Below are positions 1 to 64,000 of a stretch of 64,000 nucleotides of DNA, one piece after another. Made by a program: the position numbers and the translations under genes. Numbering within the stretch: the stretch's first letter is position 1; the number at the start of each line of letters is the position of its first letter. The DNA is from Terramyces sp. JEL0728 (lineage: Eukaryota > Chytridiomycota > Chytridiomycetes > Rhizophydiales > Terramycetaceae), in NCBI GenBank assembly GCA_027603945.1, contig JADIIU010000027.1, positions 62,001 to 126,000 on the forward strand, given 5' to 3'. The notes below the pieces were generated by a model that worked only from the letters and a program-made list of their open reading frames with translations, searched no databases and was not told where the DNA came from.

Positions 1-1125
1 TTGAAAAAAGTTTTGATTTGAAACAGCCCAGTTTGGATGAAGATGTAAAGATTAAAATACTAGTTGGAAATGCAGAAAGCTTTGTTGAAGATGGAATCCC
101 AAGCTCTTTGGTTCAAACATATTTGCCGAATATTATCGAAATAATGATGCATACAAATCTGAAAGTGTCGAAAGTTGCATTCAAAGCAGTTTCTTTGGCA
201 TTGGAGCATGGTTTAGTTCATCCGATTGTTTGTGTTCCTGGCATTACTGCGTTGGAATCGTGTTCTGACCCAACAATCAGAGAACAAGCGGTTTTTATAC
301 ACAAGAAACTCCACGAAAAGTATTCCAGTTTCATCCATACAAAAAACCTGGAATCAATCAATTGCTTGTACGGCTATCAAAAGAACGCTGCTAGTGCAAA
401 TAATTCAGGTGCAATCCAGTCCCATTTTGAAAACGAAAATGTGAAAATCAGCTTCATTTCTCCTTTATATGGGCTAATTAAGGAAAAGAGGAGCAGGAGA
501 AATGAATTTCTCAGGACTATTGTCAATGTATATAATTTAACTGCACCTGACGTCGCCAAAGAATATTCCTACTACAAATTTATTGGAGAATGCATTGCCT
601 ATATTGATTTTCAGACTGTTGAAGAGGTGATGCATGTGGTCTACCACATAAATGTCCTTTTGTCGTTTGGTGCTAATGCCGTTAGTCAGGCTCTCAAAGG
701 GTTATCGTCATCAGATGAGCGTCCAGAAGGTATTTACAATTTTATTTTAGATTTAACAGCTCAAGCTCTGTTTTACGGAATTGTAATTATGCTAAAGGAG
801 CACTTTAAGAAAAAGTATAATTTCACCGACATGTACTAATTTATTGACTCTAGTCAACTAATGGAAGCAAAGCCAGCTTCAAATGCAGGGTCAGCTCAAG
901 AAAAACCATTGATCAGCGGTTCACGAGTCGACTTCAAGTTGGATCTTCCTGTTGATAGTCTTTCGATTTGCAATTGGGTAACATCTGATTTAATTGTAGT
1001 TTGAAGAGATACATGATGATAATCCTGATATTGAAGACTATGAAGATTCAAATCTAGCAAAGGAAGGGAAGAGACAGCGCAGTGAGCCAGCAACCAAGAA
1101 AAAGAAAAGGAAAAAGACTGTTTAA
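1..1125 (+). CDS. SCC2: Cohesin loader SCC2/NIPBL/Mis4, C-terminal part (5' end off window)
   Basis: The frame is open from the window edge (first full codon at 3). Introns at 833-853 (21 nt) and 978-999 (22 nt) restore frame, and the stop is at 1123-1125. The visible part is the end of the HEAT-repeat hook of the cohesin loader, which opens cohesin and loads it on chromatin in the nucleus. Family signatures include HGLVHPIVCVPGITALE and a later FLRTIVNVYN block, close to the NIPBL pattern of a late HEAT segment followed by a 'HR.FL..L.N.F' helix. Splicing the first intron gives KKYNFTDMIQ, aligning with the NIPBL 'LYGFSDSKIQ' tail, which supports that 21-nt intron. The C-terminus is acidic and then lysine-rich (KKKKRKK), a likely nuclear signal. 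The N-terminal majority of the protein is missing. Confidence 0.8.
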
Positions 1126-1742
1126 ATTTGTATTTGCTTAATAAAATGTGCTATTGGGAAGTTTCAAAGTTTCACAAATATTACAACTGGTAATTTCCTC
1201 GTTGTTTCAGGGTAACTAGCAAATATTGTTATTTGGTTATTATTAAAATGATATTAGGTGTTTATTTGAATAGATAGATCATAATCGTTGGTCTTGATAA
1301 TATCCAACATAACTCTAAGAAGAAAACCCTTGATGATAATTGATTATTTCCAAATCGCTAACGGTTGCAGCCTTTGAGCAATCTATATATGGCCAAGTAT
1401 CCTGACTCGCGAGATGACGACTGCACTGATGTGAACACAACGAGCAGCAACATTGCAAATTGGTAAGAATTAAGTGGAGGTACAAAAATCAAATTGCCAT
1501 CCAAAAGAAGCAACTAAAGAATTTTATTGGATAGCACAGTTGCAGCGAGTTCAAGCTACCAGCCAGGCTATCGATAGTCACAGCGGTTTCTCCTTCTTTG
1601 GCTTACTAGGGAAAGGGAATAATGATCAACAATTGATATGCCATGGATTCATACCCAAAGCGCTACTAATATGCAGCTTACCCATTGAATCCTCATATCA
1701 TTGGGAATCTTAGCCATTGGAATTCTTTTTTTTTTTTGAAAA
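1126..1742. other. Intergenic stretch, possible unresolved small exons
   Basis: No gene can be supported. A short ATG frame begins at 1391 (MAKYPDSRDDDCTD...) and stops at about 1463. A 79-codon open frame covers 1474-1713 but starts with GTG. I could not join them with a convincing 19-24-nt intron. A poly-T tract at about 1727-1737 lies just before the NSA1 start codon. Confidence 0.3.
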
Positions 1743-2882
1743 ATGAAATTTATAACTGGAGACGATAATGGATTAATCAAGCTCACAAACCAGAAAAAAA
1801 CTCTAGTCTTTGGAAAAACAAGCCGCCATCAAGCGGTTCAATACGTTGCATTTATTAATAGTGAAACGATAGCAGTATGTAGATCAAATGGATTCTTGGA
1901 AATAATGAATACAAATGGAACCATTTTAAAATCGCTTCAATTATTTGAAAAGCAAAAGTTTGTTGGTCTATCGGTATACAAGAATATTGCCATTACTTGC
2001 TCTGACAATGGACAAGTAGATTACACTCCCGTTGAAGTAGAAGGCACAAAAACACTATTTGACTACGAGTTAAAAGAAAAGAGGATCAATTTGGGTGTCA
2101 ATGACTTGTGCTGCTTCAAAGTACACCCAAATCTACCGCACTTGTTTGTAACTGGCGGAAAAGAGCGAGAATTGTCGATTTGGAATTACAATTCGGAAAA
2201 AGTAGAGCCGGTTTGGAAAGCAAAGAATGTCAAGAACAATAAGTTGGATATGCGCGTCAGAGTATGGATTACCGATATCAATTTTATTGAAGTTCAACCT
2301 GAAAAGGAAGATGGTAGCGATTACAAAACAAAAATCTTGATTTCCACCGGATACTCGCATATCAGGATATATGACCCTAAATTGCAAAAAAGACCAGTCA
2401 AAGAATATCACTTTCCTGAATTGCCAATATATCGTGCTATTGCTGACCAAAATAGAGTGTACTTTAGCGATACTGTCGGTATTTACTATTAATATAGGCA
2501 ACTTGACTTGCATTGATTATAATAATGGACAGATGCTCGGCAAATACAAAGGTATCGCTGGTGCTGTAGCTGCAATGGCAATCCACGATGATAAATTGAT
2601 TGTAGTTGGAAATGACAGATGGTTAAGAGTATTTGAAACCAGCGGAAAGAGAAGCGAAATAGAAAAAGTATATTCCGTCTAATTTAGGTATATTTAAAAC
2701 AGCGATTGACCAGCGTGTTGGCATACGAAGACGCAGTGGAACCAGAAGAAGATAAAGATGAACAGGATTTGTGGGATGAATTGCCTACCATCACTGATGA
2801 CAACAAGAGAAAAATCAAAGAAGAGCCTGTGGCAGTAAAGAAGATGAAATCTAAAGAAAAGACCAAGAAAATAAAGCAATAG
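1743..2882 (+). CDS. NSA1: WD-repeat ribosome assembly factor NSA1/WDR74
   Basis: Three exons; introns 2479-2497 (19 nt) and 2668-2687 (20 nt); 366 aa after splicing. It belongs to the NSA1/WDR74 seven-blade propeller family, which acts in the nucleolus on pre-60S particles with the AAA ATPase Rix7/NVL. Family evidence: the N-terminal TGDDNGLIK start, the central FVTGGKERELSIWN blade, the VVGNDRWLRVFE blade, and KVYLKQRLTSVL directly after the propeller, the hallmark WDR74 segment. That last segment only appears when the second intron is removed. The tail is acidic and then lysine-rich (nucleolar signal). The start ATG follows a T-rich tract and is the first in frame. It converges on the 7TM gene with 52 bp between stop codons. 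Confidence 0.85.
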
Positions 2883-2934
2883 TGCAAGAAAATAAAGCAA
2901 TACATTTTAAAATGTCCAGATTGAAGACTATTTA

Positions 2935-62108: not shown

Positions 62109-62473
62109 TTCGTTAAACAAAAAAAAATTGGTGGGGCTTGGAGACCTCAAAATTTAGAGTCAAATAGTGAAGGCCAAATAGTCTCTACGATAAACTTGCA
62201 AACACCACACAATGTAGAGAAAGCACTGGTAGCGCGATATGCGGAATCTCCATTTCATGTGTGTTCTAAATTTGAGAATTCAGCCAGAGAGGCAGTAATT
62301 TCGCAACTCCAAATCGAAAGCTGCTTATATTCAATCAAAGATGGCTAGAGACGTTCAAGAAAATCCTGCAAGTAATAGTCCGAGTTTTGGCATCTCCAAA
62401 TCACGTGATGATAATCACCAAGCTTGGTGATCTGAAGCCTTATCACCAACAATTTTGTTTTAAAAGCTGAAAA
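62109..62473. promoter_or_regulatory. Divergent promoter PSE1 / homocitrate synthase (copy B)
   Basis: Keeps both palindromes seen in copy A: ATCACGTGAT at 62400-62409 and ATCACCAAGCTTGGTGAT at 62414-62431. Short indels elsewhere relative to copy A. An 83-codon frame here is broken in copy A by a TAG and is therefore not a gene. Confidence 0.55.
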
Positions 62474-63824
62474 ATGCCTAAAGGCCAAAAAATGACAGAA
62501 ACCAAGAGGTTAAAGAAGAATGACGGCACCAAGGAAGCTGTTGGGAATGGCAAAGCTGCGCAGATGCAGGTGGTCCATCCGCGCTACTCTGATCTGATCT
62601 CCAGGGTAAAGAATTTCTCTATCATCGAATCCACGCTAAGAGGTTATTGATTACTGATTTTAGAGGGCGAGCAGTTTGCAAATGCATTCTTTGACACTGA
62701 GACAAAAATCAAAATAGCAAAAGCTCTTGACGAATTTGGTGTTGAATACATTGAAATCACTTCGCCAGCTGCTTCCGAACAGAGCAGACAGGATTGTATC
62801 GCGATTTGCAATTTGGGGCTTAAAGCCAAGATTTTGACACATGTTCGCTGTCACATGGATGATGCTAGAATAGCTGTCGAAACTGGCGTGGACGGTCTTG
62901 ATGTCGTTATTGGCACATCCTCATTCTTGAGAGAATTCTCACACGGAAAAGATATGGATTATATCATCAAACAAGCAACAGAGGTCATCAAATTCATCCA
63001 ATCTAAAGGACTCGAGGTTCGTTTCTCGAGTGAAGATTCATTCAGGAGCGATTTGGTTGATCTGCTTAATTTGTACAGGACAGTAGATAAGGTTTTTGAT
63101 CGCTAATAGCAGCTGGGTGTTAATCGTGTTGGAATTGCCGATACAGTGGGTTGTGCTGATCCTCGCCAAGTGTACGAATTGGTCAGAACCCTGAGAGGTG
63201 TAGTCTCCTGTGATATTGAAACCCACTTCCACAACGATACAGGATGTGCAATTGCCAACGCCTATGCTGGTAGGATTAGTACTAACCATAGCATTGGAAG
63301 CCGGCGCCACGCATATTGATACTTCTGTACTTGGGATTGGGGAACGCAATGGTATTACCCCACTTGGCGGTTTAGTAGCTAGGATGTACACTGCAGACCG
63401 CGAAGGTGTAATGGCTAAATACAAACTAGATAAATTAAGAGAGGTTGAAAACTTGGTTGCTGAAGCTGTTCAAATCCAAGTGCCGTTCAATAACTACATA
63501 ACTGGTTACTGCGCATTTACACACAAAGCAGGTATCCACGCCAAGGCTATACTCAACAATCCAAGCACCTATGAAATTCTCGATCCACACGATTTCGGAA
63601 TGACTCGGTATGTTTCCATAGGCCATCGCTTAACGGGTTGGAATGCTGTAAAGAACCGTGTTCAGCAGTTGGGATTAACTTTGTCAGACGCAGAAGTTAA
63701 AGAAGTAACACAACAAATCAAGCAATTGGCAGATATCAAACCATTAGGCGTGGAAGAAGTCGACACGTTGTTACGAAAGTTTCACCATGAAAAGACTTCT
63801 TCAGAGAAGGCTGATGATGATTGA
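62474..63824 (+). CDS. LYS20: Homocitrate synthase (copy B)
   Basis: Same four exons, 428 aa. The third intron begins GTAGGATTAG where copy A has GTAAGATTAG, both valid donors. All catalytic histidines, the HFHND motif and [11 protein letters not shown] are kept. The second of two near-identical lysine-pathway genes in the window. Confidence 0.95.
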
Positions 63825-64000
63825 ACTTATTTAAAATAAAATCATTGCCTTCAATAACAATTATTTCAACTAGTAATATGTTTCCCTGCCAGATATCTTT
63901 CCAAAATAACAGGTATTAGAACTCGTCAATCTCAATCGATTACTCCTGCGAAATCAATCGTTTTGGACAACTTGAACCTAGAGTATTAAACCAGCACAGA

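Follow-up and report, generated by a model that had tools for sequence, protein, structure and literature searches.

Can most introns in the nucleus of an ordinary fungus be only about 20 nucleotides (nt) long? The question is raised by a 64-kb stretch of the genome of the chytrid Terramyces sp. JEL0728 (Chytridiomycota, Rhizophydiales, Terramycetaceae). In this stretch (the window; positions 62001 to 126000 of contig C27), an earlier reading of the letters alone, the original prediction, had placed around 60 introns, most of 19 to 22 nt. We followed this up with intron decoders, protein alignments, and searches for parts of the spliceosome. Judging from their ends, their internal motif, and the homologous proteins, the tiny introns are very probably genuine: spliceosomal introns of the U2 type, reduced in a chytrid nucleus almost to the smallest size physically possible.

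We decoded a sample of 264 kb, consisting of the window and 20 other 10-kb stretches (one per contig, C1 to C20), which is 1.8% of the 15,016,339-base genome (231 contigs). We used a flat-prior Viterbi decoder that scores codon usage as learned from long open reading frames in this DNA. It accepts GT..AG introns of 10 to 150 nt, charges every length the same cost, and uses no branch motif. We found that it called 292 introns, 164 of them 19 to 22 nt long. There were 3, 45, 68, 32, and 19 introns of 18, 19, 20, 21, and 22 nt, respectively, and the remainder was spread thinly across 10 to 150 nt. The counts at 18 and 21 nt are minimum values, because this decoder is blind to introns whose length is a multiple of 3 nt and that lack an in-frame stop (none was called among the 31 introns of such lengths in a set of 153 short introns). 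When we gave the decoder each of the 255 other donor/acceptor pairs as decoys, the 19- to 22-nt class held a mean of 14.5 introns (standard deviation, 8.2; maximum, 60). GT..AG was the top of the 256 dinucleotide pairs, with 164 versus 60 or fewer, and the best decoys (TA..GA and the like) look like real introns displaced by one base. At 16 non-overlapping loci outside the training DNA, 39 of 67 introns were 19 to 22 nt; eight decoy pairs at the same loci placed 1 to 6 of 48 to 64 introns in that class.

A motif-aware decoder sharpened the peak to 87 of 93 introns at the 16 untrained loci and to 348 of 386 at 19 to 22 nt in the 264 kb (18 nt, 3; 19 nt, 97; 20 nt, 144; 21 nt, 71; 22 nt, 36; 23 nt, 4; 24 nt, 3; 25 nt or more, 28). 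The learned motif combined with 12 wrong dinucleotide pairs gave 21 to 59 calls at 18 to 23 nt (mean, about 36), versus 355 with the real pair. Scaling 355 minus about 36 to 15.0 Mb extrapolates to roughly 18,000 tiny introns genome-wide, duplicated stretches included. In-frame stops were present in 63 of the 71 21-nt introns, versus 38 and 41 in the other frames, an excess that supports no inference because the decoder prefers stop-bearing introns of such lengths. A composite decoder gave 387 introns, with at most one missed for genes running past a locus edge. The sample had 1.73 introns for each kb of coding sequence, or 2.24 for each gene across 172 models, among them duplicated and partial genes. 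In the window, the motif-aware decoder made 112 calls, of which 102 were 18 to 23 nt, 72 of them left of position 46,900. Thus, both decoders bear out the predicted predominance of 19- to 22-nt introns, and the calls outnumber the predicted figure of around 60. Routine use in a gene-rich nucleus, also predicted, agrees with this gene-dense sample.

The tiny introns share one layout. In 153 short introns (18 to 22 nt, second copy of a duplication excluded), the 3' ends were TAG (97), CAG (37), AAG (18), and GAG (1). A plain pattern search, made before any training, found YTRAY in 114 of the 153, with 13 or 14 nt ahead of the A in 98 of these; the branch-site-like motif near the AG had been predicted. 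When candidate positions were scored with a fitted matrix, the best branch A lay at position 14 to 16 in 317 of 324 tiny introns (second copy excluded). It was at position 14 (75) or 15 (15) in 19-nt introns, at 15 (72), 14 (56), or 16 (4) in 20-nt introns, at 15 (47), 16 (11), or 14 (6) in 21-nt introns, and at 15 to 18 in 22-nt introns. The NAG ends 4 to 7 nt past this A. The first AG behind it is the 3' splice site in 313 of 325 introns, and 12 of 325 have an extra AG between. The 5' site prefers AAG/GTA and is weak beyond +3, with G at +5 in 22% of 324; exons end most often in AAG (62 of 324). All three intron phases are present (136, 101, and 87). The single GC donor of the original prediction was not recovered: a run in which GC was permitted gave 2 GC donors in 388 calls, one of them tiny and both outside the window. 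One GC-donor call, of 21 nt (GCAAGTAAAAGTTAATAGTAG), is at locus L028, 7504 to 7524. We found no introner family; intron pairs with 1, 2, and 3 mismatches numbered 1, 5, and 45, a slight excess over 0.5, 4.4, and 27.9 in column shuffles.

We aligned two spliced proteins of the window, importin-5 and topoisomerase II, with the best 120 of 1155 and 6237 matches, respectively, their own deposited proteins included. One homologue may contribute more than one alignment, and gapless means gapless within 4 residues of the junction. For the nine importin-5 introns, gapless support among the spanning alignments ranged from 78 of 113 to 114 of 114:

35173 to 35194, minus strand, intron 1, 22 nt; 96 of 103 gapless
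34943 to 34961, minus strand, intron 2, 19 nt; 78 of 113
34485 to 34504, minus strand, intron 3, 20 nt; 115 of 121
34305 to 34326, minus strand, intron 4, 22 nt; 116 of 121; deposited P0001 lacks three residues (VET) here
34057 to 34077, minus strand, intron 5, 21 nt; 114 of 121
33679 to 33698, minus strand, intron 6, 20 nt; 119 of 121
33032 to 33053, minus strand, intron 7, 22 nt; 90 of 114
32898 to 32918, minus strand, intron 8, 21 nt; 114 of 114
32766 to 32785, minus strand, intron 9, 20 nt; 95 of 111

The seven supported topoisomerase II sites were gapless in 109 of 119 to 119 of 119 alignments:

28766 to 28785, minus strand, intron 1, 20 nt; 108 of 108 gapless
28761 to 28765, minus strand, 5-nt exon TCCAG flanked on both sides by 20-nt introns, required for the RP of LEHILIRPDTYIGS
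28741 to 28760, minus strand, intron 2, 20 nt; 107 of 108
28577 to 28597, minus strand, first piece of an abutting pair, 21 nt; the pair (40 nt) is missing in homologues, 111 of 114 gapless
28558 to 28576, minus strand, second piece of the pair, 19 nt; 20 nt in the other copy (55271 to 55311)
28250 to 28269, minus strand, 20-nt intron; 111 of 118; deposited P0121 is mis-modelled here
28128 to 28147, minus strand, 20-nt intron; 109 of 119
27611 to 27631, minus strand, 21-nt intron; 119 of 119
26192 to 26211, minus strand, 20-nt intron; 118 of 119

Proteins P0124 to P0126 read LEHILIRPDTYIGS across the site of the 5-nt exon. For this to be encoded, both flanking 20-nt introns must be removed and the TCCAG exon retained. 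The abutting stretch of 40 nt splits at AG/GT into 21 plus 19 nt, and the 41 nt of the other copy split into 21 plus 20. Such abutting pairs were called five times, at four loci (one locus lies in the duplication and was called in both copies), and both pieces of every pair have the tiny-intron layout; 255 decoy junctions gave a mean of 0.12 and a maximum of 3. Another pair in the window is a candidate from the decoder:

45581 to 45620, minus strand, abutting 20-nt pair (45601 to 45620 and 45581 to 45600) with an exon-free junction

At locus L026, 3842 to 3905, one decoder run gave a possible triple run of 22, 21, and 21 nt, of which the composite decoder kept the first two.

Other genes gave junctions of the same kind, and the cyclophilin, lipid kinase, kinesin, and homocitrate synthase examples of the original prediction were all placed:

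29725 to 29743, plus strand, 19-nt intron GTATTTCTTGCTAATATAG of a cyclophilin E-like gene (RRM plus cyclophilin), between QG and GDFTNHDG
22133 to 22151, plus strand, 19-nt intron GTATTACTTGCTAATATAG of a lipid-kinase-like gene (DAGK_cat domain), called by the flat and motif decoders
21405 to 21424, plus strand, 20-nt intron of the same gene, called by the motif decoder
35904 to 35924, plus strand, 21-nt intron of homocitrate synthase (TLR/EGEQ), contiguous with 3ivs
36353 to 36373, plus strand, 21-nt intron of homocitrate synthase from the motif-aware model; an earlier 18-nt version left one surplus residue versus 3ivs
36531 to 36552, plus strand, 22-nt intron of homocitrate synthase, from the 3ivs comparison and the motif decoder
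39905 to 39925, minus strand, 21-nt kinesin intron inside GQTG/SGKT; the motor-domain match to 7a3z is contiguous here
17746 to 18628, minus strand, four 20- to 21-nt introns of the cilia/flagella gene CFAP300, which fits a flagellated organism, as predicted

The spliced cyclophilin E-like protein aligned with the PPIE chain 5mqf without a gap at its site. In kinesin, calls of 99 nt and 19 nt compete at 39547 to 39713. We also compared Pfam scores before and after splicing; these come from two tools, so that small changes mean little. For held-out cyclophilins, the score rose in six of seven (153 to 197, 144.2 to 171.4, 143 to 164.1, 168.2 to 175.8, 170.2 to 175.1, and 129.9 to 134.1) and dropped in the seventh (157.6 to 156.3). 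At an eighth cyclophilin locus, L007, no gene model crossed the midpoint. Splicing joined two pieces of Slu7 (139.2 and 104.2) into one match of 289.2 and gave the U2AF large subunit a score of 334 in place of 251.7. Prp18 was unimproved (109.1 before and after).

To see what machinery is encoded, we searched the genome for spliceosome components. The U2 small nuclear RNA (snRNA) was found at 140 bits with its GUAGUA intact. Slu7 covers its whole profile, the U2AF large subunit is above the cut-off, and Prp18 is covered in two pieces. Two Rfam matches to U6 of 27 bits were rejected: the one at L030 crosses a predicted 21-nt intron inside a gene model (itself a weak VTT-domain match, 29.9 bits, under the 33.9 cut-off), and the one at L031 is a near copy by eye. 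The suggestion that the U1, U2, U6, and U2AF genes be inspected thus brought a U2 and a U2AF large subunit of ordinary appearance.

The peak at 19 to 22 nt might arise in decoding, from chance GT..AG pairs that mend reading frames. The decoder does make false calls, and the decoy pairs average 14.5 introns in this class, but the 164 GT..AG introns lie far over every decoy and the peak persists in untrained loci. In two proteins, moreover, the excised stretches are absent in most alignments (up to 121 per site), and we give such an artefact next to no credence. Nor do we think it at all probable that the stretches are sequencing errors or inserts removed by other means, such as DNA elimination or ribosomal bypassing. 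Ciliates do eliminate DNA sequences of a size similar to that of the tiny introns. However, the Terramyces stretches begin with GT, end with AG, and hold a motif complementary to U2 at a fixed position. All three phases are used, the genome encodes U2, U2AF, Slu7, and Prp18, and random errors would not yield a single length class with a single motif. Similarly, we considered abutting pairs as single introns of 38 to 46 nt with a chance internal AG/GT. Introns of 38 to 47 nt that are not divisible into two do occur, and this explanation is a serious minority possibility; on the other side stand the five calls that split into two pieces of tiny layout and the near-empty decoy junctions.

Several points weigh against genuine U2-type splicing as we read it. 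The case is built from DNA and protein alignments. The motif-aware decoder yields false calls, as its 12 decoys show (mean of about 36 against 355 tiny calls); strict YTRAY is absent from 39 of the 153 short introns; and the branch positions are those preferred by a fitted matrix. Support was lowest among the 17 importin-5 and topoisomerase II junctions at a topoisomerase II call at 24798 to 24818, which we rejected (gapless in only 2 of 8, with seven residues read there by deposited P0121); the next lowest was 78 of 113. U1 snRNA and U6 snRNA were not found by Rfam model, by DNA, or by pattern, and the N-terminal domain of U1-70K was not found in the genome, although such searches cannot prove absence. 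One of these searches gave a single match, which had 3 mismatches, and its control also gave one. The retained Slu7, Prp18, and U2AF leave the fit of such short introns unexplained. The failure to find U1 and the U1-70K domain, together with the weak G at +5 and the fixed spacing, is what would be expected if the spliceosome were altered, for example, if it lacked a normal U1 and read donors mainly by U6/Prp8 and spacing. However, U1 snRNA diverges in fungi, introns may interrupt a short domain, and the searches missed even U6, which the spliceosome needs. AAG is still the commonest exon end, as U1 pairing would favor, and we regard an altered spliceosome as unlikely. The original prediction of a spliceosome adapted to little space holds for the scant room between the 5' site and the branch point, and the adaptation itself stays hypothetical, the tested parts looking ordinary.

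For U2-type introns of this kind, intron definition on a fixed ruler is the likely mechanism. Each tiny intron holds little besides a 5' splice site, a short spacer, a YTRAY-like branch site with its A at 14 to 16, and NAG, and the four usual lengths are combinations of the 5'-to-branch and branch-to-NAG spacings. U2 would pair with the branch site, a nearby GT at the right distance would serve as donor, and the AG immediately behind the branch point would become the 3' splice site. We infer that the introns are excised from RNA by intron definition, with a lariat loop of about 14 to 16 nt, and that abutting introns are spliced successively. A bolder proposal is that the chytrid clade of Terramyces possesses a fixed 14- to 16-nt ruler, reliable enough for head-to-tail introns (two, perhaps once three) to be removed successively, in a lineage that has been gaining such introns. 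We consider this combination doubtful. The suggestion of intron gain comes from environmental relatives, because metagenomic proteins P0010 and P0011 (68% identity) are gapless through five of the nine importin-5 intron sites and start and end near two others. Depending on how those proteins were called, the organisms behind them would lack these five introns.

Part of the window is present twice:

20394 to 37265, plus strand, copy A of a duplicated 16.9-kb stretch, 98.8% identical to copy B
47103 to 64000, plus strand, copy B, reaching the window end, 98.8% identical to copy A

Introns in these stretches are counted twice because there are two copies. From 20948 on, the copies differ at 99 of 4807 third codon positions (2.1%), at 17 first and 8 second positions, at 10 of 628 positions of tiny introns, and at 30 of 1084 intergenic positions (2.8%). 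With gaps counted in a single direction, the second copy lacks 1 base in tiny introns and 42 in intergenic DNA. Each copy has 34 introns, and 2 of these differ in length, by one base each. By these counts, tiny introns evolve about as fast as silent sites and hardly at all in length. The duplication could be young, or it could be two haplotypes joined by the assembler. Elsewhere, L030 (contig C199) and L031 (contig C111) are near-identical gene copies by eye, which suggests unmerged haplotypes.

We compared our models with the deposited proteins. In the first searches, importin-5 and topoisomerase II each matched Terramyces sp. JEL0728 proteins at 98% identity. The final importin-5 model equals P0001 except for three residues at one junction, and P0001 has 8 of 9 introns removed as in the model. 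In topoisomerase II P0121, 3 of the 7 supported sites are removed as in the model. P0121 lacks model residues 2 to 70, misreads one junction, and starts MKVRDPGM, a sequence that could be read from an ATG within the second abutting piece. As far as we have seen, the tiny introns are thus partly present in the public annotation and apparently unremarked. The deposited topoisomerase of Boothiomyces sp. JEL0866 (P0123) reads RPGKS where others read RPDTYIG. The window has CCA GGT AAG AGT at the equivalent site, an exon followed by an intron start. Because RPGKS matches these codons, P0123 probably reads into the same tiny intron. If two of two checked proteins are a guide, many such junctions may be wrong in the proteomes of the group.

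A minor class of introns of 45 to 47 nt was seen at L012 (504 to 548), L014 (4814 to 4858), L028 (9383 to 9427), and once in the window; some carry GTAAGT or GTGCGT donors and TCTAAT/TACTAAC-like branch sites:

24007 to 24053, plus strand, longer, rarer 47-nt candidate intron, called by the motif-aware decoder

At 13808 to 16431 lie three adjacent, apparently related membrane-protein genes with 1 or 2 tiny introns each; the one scanned had no Pfam match. Two further places, 19750 to 20886 (a tandem pair) and 47188 to 47595, encode small proteins that by eye appear to have signal peptides; the one scanned matches DUF3455. We found no tRNAs and no Rfam families at the gathering threshold in the window, and no relatives among viral contigs.

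All of these data taken together make tiny introns predominant in the part of this intron-rich fungal nucleus that we sampled. Spliceosomes are well studied in the fungal kingdom, and Terramyces is an independent case there. Because 19 to 22 nt is close to the shortest length at which splicing is known to work, an ordinary fungus becomes a new place to study its physical limits. With Terramyces it can be tested directly whether minimal introns depend on a changed spliceosome or whether fixed spacing suffices.

Introns this small (about 20 nt) occur in relic nuclei, in certain ciliates, and in certain reduced parasites. Splicing that proceeds recursively at exons of zero length is known from Drosophila, where it takes place inside very long introns. 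The abutting pairs resemble it in the AG/GT junction with a zero-length exon between, but the Terramyces introns are 19 to 23 nt and are predicted from DNA. Chlorarachniophyte nucleomorphs have introns of 18 to 21 nt, more than 800 in about 300 genes, according to PMC10245619. The likeness is close, with nearly the same lengths and large numbers, although the nucleomorph is a relic endosymbiont nucleus and Terramyces has a 15-Mb fungal one. For Stentor coeruleus, PMC9505925 describes introns of 15 to 16 nt and most spliceosomal proteins as conserved, a further likeness. Its introns share with those of Terramyces the ultra-short length, the GT..AG ends, and the short 3' tail. They differ in the branch A, which is at position 10 to 11 there and at 14 to 16 in Terramyces. 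They also lack, in the same paper, a mammal-like G at the exon end, whereas AAG is the commonest exon end in Terramyces. Mikrocytids likewise have ultra-short introns in a narrow range (16 to 17 nt). They differ in having 17 to 19 spliceosomal proteins and, in Mikrocytos mackini, 224 introns (PMC10245619), against 1.73 per kb of coding sequence in Terramyces. Among fungi, a genome survey describes the 63-bp mean of Cryptococcus as relatively short (PMC8476143), and among the papers listed by our literature searches, confined to open-licence ones, we saw no report of ultra-short introns in chytrids. With 348 of 386 sampled introns at 19 to 22 nt, Terramyces belongs with the ultra-short-intron genomes, in which most introns are about 15 to 22 nt within a narrow range. 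With 15.0 Mb and 2.24 introns per gene, it does not belong with the reduced or intron-poor genomes of the nucleomorph, mikrocytid, or microsporidian type. We conclude that these are very probably ordinary U2-type introns at an extreme of size and that Terramyces is a new fungal case among the ultra-short-intron genomes.

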